Notes under the pieces: generated by a model
Told to the model about the DNA's origin: nothing
Database searches by the model: none
The model's input: the letters and a program-made list of their open reading frames with translations, nothing else
Assembly (NCBI RefSeq): GCF_000007665.1
Contig: NC_006087.1
Coordinates: 2,170,001 to 2,234,000 of the forward strand
Origin: Leifsonia xyli subsp. xyli str. CTCB07
GTDB taxonomy: Bacteria > Actinomycetota > Actinomycetes > Actinomycetales > Microbacteriaceae
Direction of reading: 5' to 3'
DNA: 64,000 nucleotides
In this document: piece after piece, positions 3,924 to 9,225 of the stretch
How positions within the stretch are numbered: position 1 is the stretch's first letter
Layout: each line of letters starts with the position of its first letter
Translations under genes and position numbers: made by a program

Positions 3924-4889
3924 ATGAAAATCCTCACCACGATCGCAGCGCTCCTCCTGGCAGGGACCCTGGTCGTCACAACACCGGCCGCCTCCCCGGC
4001 GGCCCCGCTCAGCCGCACCTCCACCGGCGCGTCAGCACCGTCCACCGGACCGCTGCCGTCGGGGAACGGCCAGCTGGTCGTCGTGCGCGAACTTCGGGTC
4101 CCGGTCGCCTGGCGCGAATCGCAGACCGATCTCTACGGCACTGTCACCCTCAGCAACGGCAAAGGGCCACGGCAGACCTCCACCGCTTTCAGCAGGAGCC
4201 GTTACGACCCCGTCGCCGTCGACGACCAGGCGCGCACAGCCCTTGCCCCGAACGCGCTGACCGGCAGCCGCGTGAAGATATCGATCGACCTCTGGGACCA
4301 TTTTCCGCTCATCCCTCTTCCCGTCGTCCCCATGCCCGACGCGCCTCAGGCGAGGGGGATCATCGACACGACCAACGATCTGGCCGGGGTGTACACGAAG
4401 ACGATCTACGGCGCAGGCGATCGCAAGGTGATCATCACCTACAGCGTCCAGAACGAGTGGCAAGCCTGGGCGGTCACCGCGATCAGACTGGACAACACCG
4501 ACTACAGCGAACCCGCTGACGTCTACGGTCACTTTGCCGTCTGCACCGATATGCCCGGCCTGCTCGACTGCGTGAGAAGAGAAAGGTTGCCGTACACGAT
4601 CTTCGACCGGAGCCGGAGCAACTACAAAGAGGTCTACAAAGGCTCGAACATCTACGAAAGCTCGGATCCCGTCTATGTCTACTCGTGGATCGAGGGCAGC
4701 CGGAGTTCGATGCGGACGACCGGATACCTCTACGACTCGCGGTTCTGGCGACGGGACGGCACAATCCTGTCCCTGCCGGAGGCCGTCGCCAGCGCAGGGA
4801 AGGGAGAGTCTCAATACACTGTTCCCTCCAGCGGCCCGAATGGGGGAGTCACCGTCTTCCTATACACCAAAACGGGCAGCGCCTACTAA
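3924..4889 (+). CDS. Secreted protein of unknown function (paralogue of the 21.0-21.9 kb gene)
   Basis: The 321-residue product starts with a clear Sec signal peptide (MKILTTIAALLLAGTLVVTT, likely cleaved after ASPAA), with AAAGG 11 nt upstream of the ATG. The mature part is rich in aromatic and beta-type sequence with no domain I can name. Conserved blocks shared with the broken gene at 21017-21948 are LVVVR.L.VP, SQTDLYG..TL.NG, V.I.*DLWDH style segments, a VYTKTI-like block, DVYG.F.VC and DPVYVYS. Two Cys (in FAVCTD and LLDC) could form a disulphide after export. Its stop codon overlaps the stop of convergent mgtC by 4 nt. It lies just downstream of the IS30 element, so its native promoter may have been displaced. 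Confidence 0.8.
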   Translation: MKILTTIAALLLAGTLVVTTPAASPAAPLSRTSTGASAPSTGPLPSGNGQLVVVRELRVPVAWRESQTDLYGTVTLSNGKGPRQTSTAFSRSRYDPVAVDDQARTALAPNALTGSRVKISIDLWDHFPLIPLPVVPMPDAPQARGIIDTTNDLAGVYTKTIYGAGDRKVIITYSVQNEWQAWAVTAIRLDNTDYSEPADVYGHFAVCTDMPGLLDCVRRERLPYTIFDRSRSNYKEVYKGSNIYESSDPVYVYSWIEGSRSSMRTTGYLYDSRFWRRDGTILSLPEAVASAGKGESQYTVPSSGPNGGVTVFLYTKTGSAY

Positions 4890-5602
4890 TCGGCCACCAC
4901 CGCCTCCGAGGCAGTCCAGCGCACAGCGGTGACCGCCTCGGAGACGACCACGGCGGCGAGCGCGTCCTCGATCTCGTGATCGTCGCGCTCGTCGCTGTGG
5001 ACCGCGGCCGTGATCAGCACAGCCCCATCGGGCTCGTCCGTCGCCGTGATCGAGCGCACGACGAACCCCGGCCGATGCACCGCCTCGAAGACCAGCGCCC
5101 GCACCTCCACTTCCGCGTCCACCCGGCAGCGGACCTCGAACACATAGTCCGTCTCCAAGGTCTCCTTGCCACTGCTCCCGGCCCGCCGGTCGAGGAGCCG
5201 TCCGAGCGGGCGCAGCAGCGTGTTCGCGAGCATCACAATCAGCGTCCCACCGGCCGCGACCGCGAGGAGGCCGCCGCCAGCGAGAGCGCCGATCGCGGCG
5301 GACGTCCACAGAGTCGCCGCCGTGTTGAGGCCGGAGACAGATGCGCCCTGCTTCATGATGACGCCCGCTCCGAGGAAGCCGATGCCCGAGACGACCTGGG
5401 CCGCCACCCGGGTCGGGTCGGCGTCCGGACCGTGGAAGCTGTAGGCCCCCATCACGACGAACAGAGCGGCGCCCAAGCTCACGAGCGCGTTGGTGCGCAC
5501 GCCGGCTGTGCGGGCGCGCCACTGGCGTTCGAAGCCGATGAGAGCGCCGCAGCCGACCGCGAGAAGCACTCTCAGGGCGATGTCAGCGGTGAGCGTCGAC
5601 AT
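4886..5602 (-). CDS. mgtC: MgtC/SapB family membrane protein
   Basis: The 238-residue protein has four or more N-terminal hydrophobic helices containing the family signature: GALIGFERQWRAR.AGVRTNALV, then GIGFLGAGVIMK and SVSGLNTAATLW.SAAIG. A soluble C-terminal domain of about 90 residues, ACT-like in MgtC proteins, follows. MgtC proteins are known to support growth in low Mg2+ and in host tissue, often by modulating the F-ATPase or phosphate uptake rather than transporting Mg2+. The start ATG has a strong AGGAGGAG ribosome site. It begins 9 nt after the mgtA stop and so is co-transcribed under the same M-box leader. A role under Mg2+ limitation is inferred from that context. Confidence 0.93.
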   Translation of the reverse strand: MSTLTADIALRVLLAVGCGALIGFERQWRARTAGVRTNALVSLGAALFVVMGAYSFHGPDADPTRVAAQVVSGIGFLGAGVIMKQGASVSGLNTAATLWTSAAIGALAGGGLLAVAAGGTLIVMLANTLLRPLGRLLDRRAGSSGKETLETDYVFEVRCRVDAEVEVRALVFEAVHRPGFVVRSITATDEPDGAVLITAAVHSDERDDHEIEDALAAVVVSEAVTAVRWTASEAVVAD

Positions 5603-5611
5603 CCTCTCCTC

Positions 5612-8335
5612 CTAGATCCAGGTGCCGTACCGGCGGATGAACACCCTCTTCAGCACCTCCGTGAGCGCACAATATGCCACCAGCGTCGCGATCAGCCAGG
5701 GAAAGTACATCCACGGCAACGACACCAGGCCCAGCTGGTGGCCCCAGCCGCTGAACGGGAGCACCAAGCCGAATACGCACACGGCTCCCGTCGCCAGCGC
5801 GACCGGCAGGCTCGCCCGGGAGCGGACGAAGGGCAGGTGCTTCGTCCGCAGCATGTGGACGATGAGAGTCTGCGAGATGATCGACTCGATGAACCAGCCC
5901 GACTGGAACAGGGCCGCGTGGGCCGGGCTGTTCGCCTGGAAGACGAACCACATGAGCGCATAGGTCGTGATGTCGAAGATCGAGGAGATCGGCCCGATGC
6001 GGATCATGAAGGCGGACAGGCTCTTCGACTCCCACGCGCGCGGCTTCTTCAGCTCGTCTTTGTCGACGTTGTCCCACGGCAGGGTGAGCATCGAGAGGTC
6101 GTAGGTGAGGTTCTGCACAAGGACGACGACGGGGATCATCGGGATGAACGGGAGCAGCGCGCTCGCGACGAGCACCGAGAACATGTTGCCGAAGTTCGAG
6201 GACGCGGTCATCTTGATGTACTTCATCGCGTTCACGAAGGTGCGCCGGCCCTCGATCACACCGCCTTCAAGCACCGTGAGGTCCTTCTCGAGCAGGATGA
6301 TGTCCGCCGACTCCTTGGCGATGTCCACCGCCGTGTCGACCGAGATCCCCACATCCGCGGCACGCATTGCGGCGGTGTCGTTGATACCGTCGCCGAGGTA
6401 GCCGACGGTGTGGCCGTGTGCGCGCATCGCCTCCACGATCCTGGCCTTCTGAGCGGGTGCGACCTTCGCGAAGACACTGGTCTCCTCGGCCAGCTGGCCG
6501 AGCTCCTCGATCGTCAGCTCATCCGTCTCCGGGCCGAGCACGATCGTGCGGGGGTCGATGCCGACTTTGGCGCAGACAGCGGCTGCGACCAGCAGGTTGT
6601 CGCCGGTGATCACTTTCACCTCCGTGCCGTGCTTCCGCAGGCTGGCGATCGCAGCTCCCGCACTGGCCTTCGGCGGGTCGAGGAAGGCCAGGAAACCGAG
6701 GAGGGTCAGCTCCGCCTCGTCGTCGCGGGAGTACTCGCCACGGTCGCCGCCGTCGAACTCGCGCACAGCGACCGCGAGCACCCGCAACCCTTGCTCATTG
6801 CGCTCGGCGACGAGCTGGTCGATCTCGGCCAGCCGGCCCGGGGAGAGCTCCACGTCCATTCCGCTGACCCGCTCGGAGACGCACGCTGCCAGCATTTCCT
6901 CGGTGGCGCCCTTCGCGATTAGAACGTGTGCGTCTCCGCGATCCACCACAACCGACATGCGCCTCCGGTCGAAGTCGAACGGCACCTCGTCGACGAAGGT
7001 CCACTCACGCCGGATGCGGTCGAGCTCGTCCGGACCGGCTGCGGCCACGACCGCATCGTCCAGGAGGTTGCGCAGACCGGTCTGGAACAGAGAGTTCGCG
7101 GCGGCGTAGCCCAGCGTCGTCTCGCTGGTGCGGCCCGCCGTGTTGAGGTGCTGTTCGAGCACGATCCGGTCCTCGGTGAGCGTGCCTGTCTTGTCCGTCG
7201 CCAGGATGTCGATGGCTCCGAGGTTCTGGATGGAGTTGAGCCGCTTGACGATCACCTTGCGCTTGGCCATGAACTGCGCGCCTTTGGCCAGGTTCGCCGT
7301 GACGATCAGGGGAAGCATCTCCGGCGTGAGGCCGACGGCCGTGGTCACCCCGAACAGGAAAGCGCTGGTCCAGTCCTTGGTGAGTCCATTGATGACGAAC
7401 ACCGTCGGCACCATGACCAGCATGAACCGGATGAGCGTGACCGTGACCCGGCGGATGCCGGTGTCGAAGGCGGTCTCGGGGCGGGCGCCGACGACCGCAG
7501 AGGAGAGGCTGCCGAACGATGTGGACCGGCCCGTGCCGATCACGACGCCCGTCCCCGATCCGGAGATCACGGAGGTTCCCATGAACCCCAGGTTCGGGGC
7601 GTCCAGCAGGTTCGCCTCGGTGACGCCGTCCACCGGGTCCGCGGACTTCTCCGCGGGCAGGGACTCGCCGGTGAGCATGGACTGGTTCACCTGGAGGTCC
7701 TTCGCTCGCACGATGCGCAGATCGGCCGGGACCATATCGCCGGCGGCCAGATGCACGATGTCACCGCGCACCACGTCCTCCACCGGGATTTCGCCTGTCA
7801 CCGGCGTGCCGTGGGAGATCCGGGTGACGGCGGTGGTCGTGCGGACCAGCGCCCGCAGCTTCTCCGCGGCGCGCGTGGAGCGGTACTCCTGCCAGAACCG
7901 CAGCGTCACGCTGACGAGCACCATGATGCTCAGCGTGACGACGCCGGTGTAGTCGGGCCCGTCGGCGGGGTCGGCGAGCACCACATCGGTGAACACCATC
8001 ACGACCGCCAGGAACAGCAGAATGAGGATGAACGGATTCGCGAACGTGGCGAGGAACTGCACGATCGCCGGTGCGGGCTTGCCGTGGTCCACGGCGTTGT
8101 CGCCGAACCGGGAGCGGCGGCTGCGCACCGCCTCCGGGGTGAGGCCGTTCAGACCGGTGTCGAACGACCGGATCGTGGCCTCTGCAGGGAGCCGTGCGGA
8201 CTCCACCAGAACGCGCTGCTGCCCGGCGGGCAGCGAGCCGCGGCGGGTCTGCTGGCGAACGGTTTTCGGAGTGTCGCGACCGTCGGGCACGGCGGGGTTC
8301 AGGATGTCGAGATCAGTGCGGAAGAAGGGGCGCAT
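5612..8335 (-). CDS. mgtA: Mg2+-importing P-type ATPase
   Basis: The 907-residue P3B-type ATPase imports Mg2+ across the plasma membrane at the expense of ATP. Visible features in order are an N-terminal cytoplasmic tail, the TGES actuator loop (NQSMLTGESLPAEK), the P3B membrane signature VGLTPEMLP, the phosphorylation motif DKTGTLT with its catalytic Asp near residue 385, the hinge GDGINDTAAMRAADVGIS, and about six C-terminal membrane helices with VQNLTYDLSM. Length matches the family. The start codon at 8335 follows GGAG at the expected spacing. The 5' leader carries an M-box, a small ORF and a C-rich segment, so expression should rise when Mg2+ falls. All key motifs are intact, in contrast to many neighbouring genes. 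Confidence 0.97.
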   Translation of the reverse strand: MRPFFRTDLDILNPAVPDGRDTPKTVRQQTRRGSLPAGQQRVLVESARLPAEATIRSFDTGLNGLTPEAVRSRRSRFGDNAVDHGKPAPAIVQFLATFANPFILILLFLAVVMVFTDVVLADPADGPDYTGVVTLSIMVLVSVTLRFWQEYRSTRAAEKLRALVRTTTAVTRISHGTPVTGEIPVEDVVRGDIVHLAAGDMVPADLRIVRAKDLQVNQSMLTGESLPAEKSADPVDGVTEANLLDAPNLGFMGTSVISGSGTGVVIGTGRSTSFGSLSSAVVGARPETAFDTGIRRVTVTLIRFMLVMVPTVFVINGLTKDWTSAFLFGVTTAVGLTPEMLPLIVTANLAKGAQFMAKRKVIVKRLNSIQNLGAIDILATDKTGTLTEDRIVLEQHLNTAGRTSETTLGYAAANSLFQTGLRNLLDDAVVAAAGPDELDRIRREWTFVDEVPFDFDRRRMSVVVDRGDAHVLIAKGATEEMLAACVSERVSGMDVELSPGRLAEIDQLVAERNEQGLRVLAVAVREFDGGDRGEYSRDDEAELTLLGFLAFLDPPKASAGAAIASLRKHGTEVKVITGDNLLVAAAVCAKVGIDPRTIVLGPETDELTIEELGQLAEETSVFAKVAPAQKARIVEAMRAHGHTVGYLGDGINDTAAMRAADVGISVDTAVDIAKESADIILLEKDLTVLEGGVIEGRRTFVNAMKYIKMTASSNFGNMFSVLVASALLPFIPMIPVVVLVQNLTYDLSMLTLPWDNVDKDELKKPRAWESKSLSAFMIRIGPISSIFDITTYALMWFVFQANSPAHAALFQSGWFIESIISQTLIVHMLRTKHLPFVRSRASLPVALATGAVCVFGLVLPFSGWGHQLGLVSLPWMYFPWLIATLVAYCALTEVLKRVFIRRYGTWI

Positions 8336-8408
8336 GAGAGGTGTCTCCTCGGATTTCGGACGCGACGAAACACCGGTCGCCAGGGAACGGCCGGGCAGGT
8401 TCGCGCAT

Positions 8409-8444
8409 CAGCGCTGGGGGTGGGATGGGTGGGGGGAGCCCGCG
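8409..8444 (-). promoter_or_regulatory. C-rich, G-poor leader segment (possible Rho loading site)
   Basis: On the transcribed strand the RNA reads GGGCUCCCCCCACCCAUCC then CACCCCCAGCG, a strongly C-over-G segment directly after the leader ORF stop. Such bubbles are typical of Rho utilisation sites, and Salmonella mgtA and corA leaders use Rho-dependent termination. No intrinsic terminator with a U-tract is visible between the M-box and mgtA, which makes a Rho mechanism more plausible. This is inference from composition and context only. Confidence 0.4.
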
Positions 8445-8454
8445 GAGACGACGC

Positions 8455-8529
8455 TCAGGACGAAGGTCGGGGAGACCGTGCCAGAGCGGCACCGCGAGCA
8501 CGGGGAGATCGACTGTCGTCGTCGCTCAT
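8455..8529 (-). CDS. 24-codon leader peptide upstream of mgtA
   Basis: A short ORF lies between the M-box and mgtA. Its ATG at 8529 follows an excellent ribosome site, AAAAGGAGGTGACCCG, the strongest in this locus. The peptide starts MSDDDSRSPRARG and ends RSPRPSS: an acidic run immediately after the start, then Arg/Pro-rich sequence. Its stop is about 120 nt before mgtA. In enterobacteria the mgtL leader ORF upstream of mgtA contains acidic/proline codons that destabilise translating ribosomes at low Mg2+ and change transcription into mgtA. The composition and position here suggest an analogous role, but the sequences are not homologous and the function is an inference. Confidence 0.6.
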   Translation of the reverse strand: MSDDDSRSPRARGAALARSPRPSS

Positions 8530-8598
8530 CGGGTCACCTCCTTTTCGGCCGGACGCATCTCGCAGGCGGGAGCCTGACATCGCATGCATCATGGATCG

Positions 8599-8763
8599 GC
8601 ACTTCCACGTAAGAGTTTCGGCACTGCGCGACGTGTCCCGCCGGGCGGGAAGCCACCTGGGGTCACCCCTTAGGCCGGGGAGACCTGTCCTGATCTTGGG
8701 CATCTCTCGACGTCGTCAGATCAGTGGCCTGTGTTCACGCAGGAGCCTCACCTAACGAAGTGC
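8599..8763 (-). ncRNA. M-box (ykoK) magnesium riboswitch
   Basis: The minus strand carries the conserved M-box elements in order: CUUCGUUAGGUGAGGCUCCU at the 5' side, the internal block ACGUCGAGAGAUGCC, and GUGCCGAAACUCUUACG at the 3' side. The outer P1 helix can be read directly as GCACUUC (8763-8757) pairing with GAAGUGC (8605-8599). M-box RNAs bind several Mg2+ ions and turn off downstream Mg2+ transporter genes when Mg2+ is plentiful. Here the genes are mgtA and mgtC, exactly the expected regulon. The expression platform is not an obvious intrinsic terminator; see the downstream leader ORF and C-rich segment. Confidence 0.95.
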
Positions 8764-8786
8764 TCTGCTCGATCACGCTAACACGC

Positions 8787-8802
8787 CTTCTCCGCGGAGA
8801 AG
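8787..8802. promoter_or_regulatory. 16-bp perfect palindrome upstream of the M-box
   Basis: CTTCTCCGCGGAGAAG reads identically on both strands and lies about 24 bp upstream of the 5' end of the riboswitch, where the mgtA promoter should be. It could be an operator for a dimeric repressor or part of a hairpin. No specific binding protein can be named. Confidence 0.4.
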
Positions 8803-9225
8803 CGCATTCTGAGCGTTTTCGAACAAACAACCGTGATTCCTTTCCTGCGCGCCTCCCCGCCGCCGCTCAATCGCCGCCCAGCACCCTCCCCCGCGCCACT
8901 CAATGCGCCGGAAACGCCACTCGCGCGCATAGCCCGGCACTCGAATGGAGGAGGTATCGATACCGGCGATCCCCGCCGAACGCCCCCTCCCCGAAACGCC
9001 CCATCCCCCAGGAGTCGCCACGCTATCCCACCGTCACACCGGCTCAGCTCTCACCCTCCCGGACATCGCGGCCGATGACGCCTCCCCCGGCCGGGTGAAG
9101 CCGCGCTCGATCGGGGCCGGCGAGGACCCCGGCGGCGCGGGGGCCGGGAACGGCTGCGAAGACGACGGGAACAGGCTCCTCCGGCATCGGCGCGGCGCGG
9201 GCGGACTCGCTGTTCTCCGCACCGA
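8803..9225. other. Intergenic, no convincing gene
   Basis: This is the region between the mgtA leader and the lipoprotein gene. It must contain the mgtA promoter on the minus strand near 8770-8830, but I cannot point to convincing -35/-10 boxes. The part 9044-9225 stays open in one minus frame and may be the displaced 3' end of the neighbouring lipoprotein gene. Confidence 0.35.

Follow-up and report, generated by a model that had tools for sequence, protein, structure and literature searches.

The Mg2+ transporter gene mgtA of Leifsonia xyli subsp. xyli CTCB07 is preceded by an M-box riboswitch aptamer and a short leader ORF, and comparison with related leaders confirms that this ORF is real and conserved beyond chance. 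Judged from the aligned sequences, what is most strongly constrained in it is an AGT (or AGA/AAA) codon kept in frame near codon 6. The best explanation that we can offer, and to which we give about an even chance, is that translation of the leader ORF is gated by the M-box and protects a C-rich leader from Rho, with the ORF rather than an intrinsic terminator as the output. The initial annotation of this DNA had seen here a possibly independent actinobacterial version of mgtA control, to be looked for in other Microbacteriaceae. The series of M-box, upstream ORF and Rho proved to be already published for Mycobacterium tuberculosis (PMC12810186), and it extends beyond the Microbacteriaceae. 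Going by our literature search alone, the novelty lies in the spread of the ORF across the class, in its codon signature and in the copies without a detectable M-box, the kind of leader itself being known from one genus. That search returned no paper on an actinobacterial mgtA M-box, nor on a magnesium-transporter leader peptide combined with a riboswitch in actinobacteria, and none besides PMC12810186 on the M-box uORF of Rv1535.

The window, i.e. the entire stretch of 64,000 nucleotides analysed, carries on its minus strand, in this order, an M-box, a 52-base linker, a Shine-Dalgarno sequence, a 24-codon ORF, a C-rich spacer, mgtA and an mgtC-family gene. The Mg2+ riboswitch aptamer (RF00380; 8766-8596) matched the full model (1-169) with 142.3 bits (E 3.7e-32), the gathering score being 44 bits, and stands upstream of a Mg2+ transport gene (mgtA), a feature of M-box membership. 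It was the sole match found when the covariance model was run on the whole genome, in a search that recovered B. subtilis as positive control. A predicted –10 element, TAGCGT preceded by TGT (8775..8780, minus strand), was read by eye, and a TANNNT at nearly constant distance from the aptamer was likewise seen by eye in all eight aligned Leifsonia-type leaders; a promoter scan of the window leader returned no sigma-70-type site. Placed by this predicted –10 element, transcription would start at about the aptamer. Just 5′ of the element lies a perfect 16-base palindrome, CTTCTCCGCGGAGAAG (8787-8802, minus strand), which is conserved only in part in L005, the closest relative, and is perhaps an operator of the window lineage.

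Behind the variable linker (8544..8595), the Shine-Dalgarno sequence AAGGAGGTGA (8534..8543) gives a ten-base match at 4-base spacing to the ATG; the ribosome site of mgtA itself is weaker (AGGAG at 9 bases). The leader ORF, MSDDDSRSPRARGAALARSPRPSS, starts at +66 after the aptamer and runs over 24 codons and a stop from the ATG at 8529 to the stop at 8455. It contains a CAGTC motif (8511..8515) with AGT in frame as codon 6, and its second half is overlapped by a C-over-G stretch of 41 C and 17 G (8413..8490), a candidate Rho-loading region. Downstream, an intact mgtA (5612..8335) encodes a Mg2+-translocating P-type ATPase of 907 aa (TIGR01524, 1144.5 bits at a cut-off of 610.75), and the next gene a 238-aa MgtC-family protein (4886..5602; PF02308, 131.7 bits), both on the minus strand. 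The series that had been annotated at the outset, an M-box, a leader ORF with the best ribosome site of the locus and a C-rich segment before mgtA, is thus borne out.

Conservation was examined in eight Leifsonia-type leaders, namely the window and seven others, behind which stand mgtA genes with 96, 86 or 75-76% identity to the window mgtA. Mean pairwise identity was 0.87 for both the aptamer and codons 1-9 of the ORF (8503..8529) and 0.82 from the Shine-Dalgarno sequence to the ATG, falling to 0.61 in the linker, 0.52 in codons 10-24, 0.56 in the spacer and 0.41 upstream. It is because codons 1-9 match the aptamer in identity, and because a search of the genome for ribosome site, start and motif in combination hits this locus alone, that the conservation of the ORF is taken to exceed chance. 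Among the nine genomes of the genus with a true MgtA orthologue (at least 75%), all had the M-box and eight the ORF, in line with the presence in close relatives that had been proposed as a check; the ninth (G004, locus L007) has M-box and mgtA only, which counts against our explanation. A conserved acidic N-terminus had also been anticipated. The Asp run of the window (MSDDD) is real but local, relatives having MSDGD, MSDYD or MSDDH, and a conserved Asp run was rejected, as only an Asp three codons ahead of the key codon, and an Asp or His directly ahead of it, are common. A search of three ORF peptides against NCBIfam gave no match at E 0.1.

The C-over-G stretch was compared with its surroundings and with other leaders. 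The 78 bases at 8490-8413 are the best such stretch and lie above 99.45% of all 78-base stretches on both strands of the window; about two dozen other regions of the window equal them, making this excess unusual but not unique. Across 88 unique leaders, C exceeded G in 81, 69 and 69 at +24-54, +54-84 and +84-114 from the ORF start, respectively, whereas upstream of the ORF and over its first 24 bases the average excess was of G over C, so that the C-over-G begins near codon 9. Since the main-gene starts of the same loci also show C over G, if more weakly (50, 37 and 43 of 62), the composition supports a Rho site but does not prove one. The initial annotation had seen no intrinsic terminator, and our terminator search likewise found no terminator-like site in 8200-9000, nor, with it, an intrinsic-terminator platform of the B. 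subtilis type. Runs of five T were present in 4 of 105 ORF leaders vs 8 of 15 M-box leaders from outside the class, the scanned stretch being longer in the ORF leaders and L092-L094 being excluded from the 18 outside loci.

These observations are consistent with a mechanism in which the aptamer would open at low Mg2+ and ribosomes would start on the leader ORF, their translation shielding the C-rich RNA from Rho and allowing RNA polymerase to reach mgtA-mgtC. At high Mg2+, the ORF would not be started and Rho would halt transcription within the leader. As the second half of the peptide is not conserved, the translation of the first codons would count for more than the finished peptide, perhaps because ribosomes pass the AGT codon slowly or in a Mg2+-sensitive manner.

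The spread of this arrangement was followed in genomes sampled at increasing distance. M-boxes were found in 12/28 genomes of the genus, 14/249 of the family, 14/347 of the order, 26/394 of the class and 22/296 of the phylum, and in 38/150 and 20/149 genomes of two further families, the sampled groups overlapping. The resulting sample consisted of 147 loci with sequence (L001-L147, of which L031 scored below the Rfam cut-off), leaving out 27 matches without a locus (13 from the class and 14 from a further family). As leader ORF we took the start with the strongest Shine-Dalgarno sequence after the aptamer, with choice by hand in a number of loci. A comparable ORF was present in 103 of the 129 class M-box loci examined, ahead of mgtA, mgtE, corA, mgtC, Nramp, ABC or PE genes, vs 2 of 18 loci outside the class (L092 and L093), neither of which has the motif.

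The 26 class loci without the ORF weigh against our explanation. The main gene follows the aptamer in 14 of them (eight Bifidobacterium-like, five mgtC-first and one mgtE leader), and L109 lies at a contig border. These 14 leaders, together with the M-box and mgtA of L007, are what would be expected if the ORF were a by-product in a passive spacer and aptamer plus Rho alone set the Mg2+ control of mgtA. However, a spacer would not be conserved to the same degree as the aptamer, nor would its ORF survive where no aptamer is detectable, and we regard this account as extremely unlikely. In the eight Bifidobacterium-like loci (L038-L045), the transporter gene itself starts 73-76 bases past the aptamer, which is the usual position of the ORF.

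Codon usage was analysed in the 88 unique ORFs, copies that did not differ within the first 27 bases having been dropped; since related sequences are no independent samples, the counts are not readable as probabilities. Within the first 36 bases, 75 occurrences of the motif YA(G/A)(T/A)C were counted, 73 of them in frame, vs four in the next 36 bases; 17 of the 88 ORFs lack it, a further point against our explanation. It lies 8, 11, 14, 17, 20 or 23 bases after the A of the start codon, i.e. it shifts by whole codons and retains its frame. Of 50 serines at codon 6, 47 are encoded by AGT. Across codons 2-10, AGT accounts for 129 of 222 Ser codons, vs 7 of 211 further along the ORF and 2.7% (1.3 per 1000 codons) in the downstream genes, whose 31,820 codons, rather than the starts of ordinary genes, served as background. 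The synonymous bias that the initial annotation had suggested looking for is present. Similarly, AGA accounts for 18 of 84 Arg codons and AAA for all six Lys codons in codons 2-10, compared with 1.2% and 17% in the downstream genes. Ala, Val, Ile, Leu, Phe and Met together take up 50 of 792 positions in codons 2-10 vs 451 of 1491 in the remainder, and the N-terminus follows a loose consensus M-S-x-x-(D/H)-S-(P/R), the residue after the AGT/AGA/AAA codon being Pro in 45 and Arg in 29 of 94 ORFs.

As both the letters and the frame are conserved, the constraint would fall neither on the peptide alone nor on the RNA alone, and points to decoding as its target. Two other purposes of the motif were considered. 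A TAG stop in the –1 frame was rejected, as many members have CAGTC, and a general avoidance of structure by A/T-ending codons cannot account for AGT over TCT and TCA at codon 6, although part of the A/T bias in codons 2-10 may stem from it.

The conserved frame and N-terminus would also suit a working small protein that acts on the transporter, with the M-box controlling, in the ordinary way, the translation of the operon's first gene, as D'Halluin et al. suggested for Rv1805A of M. tuberculosis (PMC12810186). Nevertheless, the ORFs range from 13 to 84 aa with an unconserved second half, they precede transporters of unrelated families, and the constraint at codon 6 operates at the nucleotide level; moreover, biofilm tests of Rv1805A showed no difference (PMC12810186). 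We therefore consider a small protein quite unlikely.

Copies of the ORF were also found in the absence of a detectable M-box. A first pattern, built on the start region and run on a collection of 84,980 species genomes, yielded 15 stretches with 16 sites, vs about one expected by chance (hand estimate). Seven of these sites lie behind an Rfam M-box, and for the other nine no M-box was found even at an E-value of 1: two in Leucobacter, two in Actinotalea caeni and one each in Micropruina, Micrococcales 72-143, a Nanopelagicales MAG, a Microbacterium MAG and Leifsonia TF02-11. A second pattern, run on 327 genomes of the order, gave four sites, namely the window, two with the Actinotalea sequence and spacing, and one more site, L188, which is free of an M-box and precedes mgtE; with the reversed pattern, as control, the same genomes gave none. 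mgtA is downstream in six of the ten M-box-free sites (L148, L152, L153, L155, the second site of L156, and L162), and mgtA or mgtE directly follows the ORF in seven. At the first L156 site, a CorA-like gene stands 460 bases after the stop, with a small ORF in between; L159 has an ABC permease gene downstream, and the L150 stretch ends before the downstream gene. In the seven mgtA leaders (six M-box-free and the window), mean identity was 0.91 over codons 1-7, 0.55 over codons 9-22 and 0.76 over a 660-base piece of mgtA, values that are biased by the search pattern.

The presence of the ORF before Mg2+ transporters without a detectable M-box makes it separable from the M-box, and the leader ORF is probably a regulatory element by itself. 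These copies are in keeping with our explanation and also lend themselves to a more far-reaching, tentative reading, which we hold to be possible but would not favour: the ORF could be a stand-alone Mg2+-responsive leader of the Actinomycetes in which decoding of the first codons, with AGT/AGA/AAA as the sensing step, is combined with an M-box in many lineages and operates without one in others. If so, it would be a second, unrelated invention of the role of enterobacterial mgtL and corL, and would offer, independently of mgtL, a system in which to study how Mg2+ is reported by the ribosome itself.

Eight of the ten M-box-free leaders, all except L159 and L188, have in common a palindrome, TTGCGCAA, and a nearly invariant start block (A1). 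Much of A1 is fixed by the search pattern, with a bias at codons 2-3, yet positions that the pattern left open, namely the third base of codon 3, all of codon 4 and the second and third bases of codon 7, are nearly constant as well. This block, and the near fixation of AGT at codon 6, might indicate that the conserved element is an RNA structure or protein-binding site around the start, its coding capacity being incidental. Such an element, however, would not be expected to move by whole codons, and no consistent pairing partner was seen: a fixed partner of the YAGTC motif was rejected, the motif being unpaired at 0.76 on average in 78 loci, and compensatory changes within A1, itself partly fixed by the pattern, were found in 0 of 12 pairs. 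An RNA element of this kind is consequently improbable. The TTGCGCAA palindrome adjoins promoter-like sequence 5′ of the ORF in L148, L150, L152, L153, L155, L156 and L162, was also seen by eye before the divergent gene in L153, L156 and L162, and is a possible binding site of some regulator.

Two of the M-box-free loci show further particulars. In L159 (Leifsonia sp. TF02-11), aptamer remnants are visible by eye next to the retained ORF and ABC permease gene, which suggests that the M-box was lost by internal deletion. In L156 (Actinotalea caeni), three adjacent CorA-like ORFs (of which the first was tested, PF01544) are followed by mgtA; one copy of the leader ORF belongs to the CorA-like cluster and a second to mgtA, and no M-box was detectable at either.

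The closest known relatives are the leaders of M. tuberculosis, where an M-box controls the leader ORF uORF2 (Rv1805A), with a translational platform and Rho-dependent stops (PMC12810186). This precedent favours our explanation, except that the main stop there lies upstream of uORF2 (PMC12810186), so that Rho may not need uORF2. With the pe20 and rv1535 leaders (Rv1805A, Rv1535A), the window leader has in common the M-box, a leader ORF, a strong Shine-Dalgarno sequence and the lack of an intrinsic terminator. It differs from them in having mgtA downstream, in lacking SD1/uORF1 (no start with a Shine-Dalgarno match of at least 5 was found before +66), and in having Arg instead of Pro at position 7 of the peptide, because of which we did not file it as a member of Rv1805A. 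A pe20-type locus within our sample, L073, has an M-box, the ORF MSPGDSPYPRSM... (MSPGDSPYP...) and a PE protein (PF00934), a type of protein that we take to mark mycobacteria. Its ORF agrees with the wider set in position, ribosome site and the in-frame GATAGTCCG, and is likely of common descent with that set, the sequence being too short for proof. The uORF2 peptide, described as mycobacteria-specific (PMC12810186) and without a known role, would in this light look like a class-wide leader element that is separable from the riboswitch. The codon signature moreover singles out one codon for change, by which the role of leader ORFs becomes testable in actinobacteria.

Short translated ORFs also stand in the leaders of enterobacterial Mg2+ transporter genes, mgtL before mgtA and corL before corA. 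The initial annotation had drawn a parallel to this enterobacterial control with parts unrelated in sequence, and this parallel is supported: a short ORF recurs and Rho would do so as well, but mgtL and corL show no sequence likeness to our ORFs, and we know of no M-box in their leaders. Early acidic or Pro residues are a feature of mgtL, and an EPDP-type start is absent from the window peptide (MSDDDSRSPR). Rho acts in Salmonella mgtA and in corA, E. coli mgtA having no such evidence (PMC11552253), and efficient mgtL or corL translation lowers transporter expression (PMC11552253), a sign opposite to that of our explanation. The B. subtilis ykoK (mgtE) leader shares the aptamer family RF00380 with the window leader but uses an intrinsic terminator (PMC12810186), which was not found in the window leader.

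The enterobacterial sign would apply if the actinobacterial ORF were an MgtL-like sensor, in which full translation exposes the Rho site and drop-off at an Asp/Ser/Pro-rich start spares transcription at low Mg2+. The EPDP start of E. coli MgtL works in this way, counteracted by EttA (PMC11282234, PMC11552253). In our set, Asp, Glu or Pro occupy 240 of 792 positions in codons 2-10 vs 230 of 1491 in the rest, and the M-box-free copies would require a sensor of their own. On the other hand, acidic runs are not conserved (MSPGHSP, MSSGSSP), Asp is enriched and Glu is not, and a mechanism working through amino acids leaves the preference for AGT over AGC and TCN unexplained. We consider an MgtL-like sensor unlikely.

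Within our explanation, the step from the aptamer to the ribosome site of the ORF is inferred, and the folding tests did not show it. In Leifsonia relatives, the linker contains CUUCCACGU or CUCCCACGU (the latter with one mismatch), complementary to the aptamer 3′ strand ACGUGGAAG, and this complementarity is weakened in the window by the loss of two bases in its lineage. By analogy with the anti-Shine-Dalgarno competition proposed for the M. tuberculosis M-box (PMC12810186), the linker segment could compete in the same manner. Tested against shuffles in 61 loci, pairing was not significant overall, either between aptamer strand and linker (mean z –0.17) or between linker and Shine-Dalgarno sequence (mean z –0.35), with L004, L020 and L022 as single loci above their shuffles. 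The change of the ensemble with the aptamer strand free was likewise not significant in 85 loci (p 0.10 to 0.34). Pairing between the Shine-Dalgarno sequence and the ORF in 85 loci was barely higher than in shuffles (0.69 vs 0.64, p 0.035); it was below shuffles in the window (0.66 vs 0.71) and clearly above them in most of L100-L108. Over the 61 or 85 loci, the proposed competition gained no statistical support beyond base composition.

In L100, L102, L104, L113 and other loci from the family of G876, a GGGCC-loop-GGCCC arrangement with differing loops follows the AGT/AGA/AAA codon, forming a potential hairpin inside the coding region.
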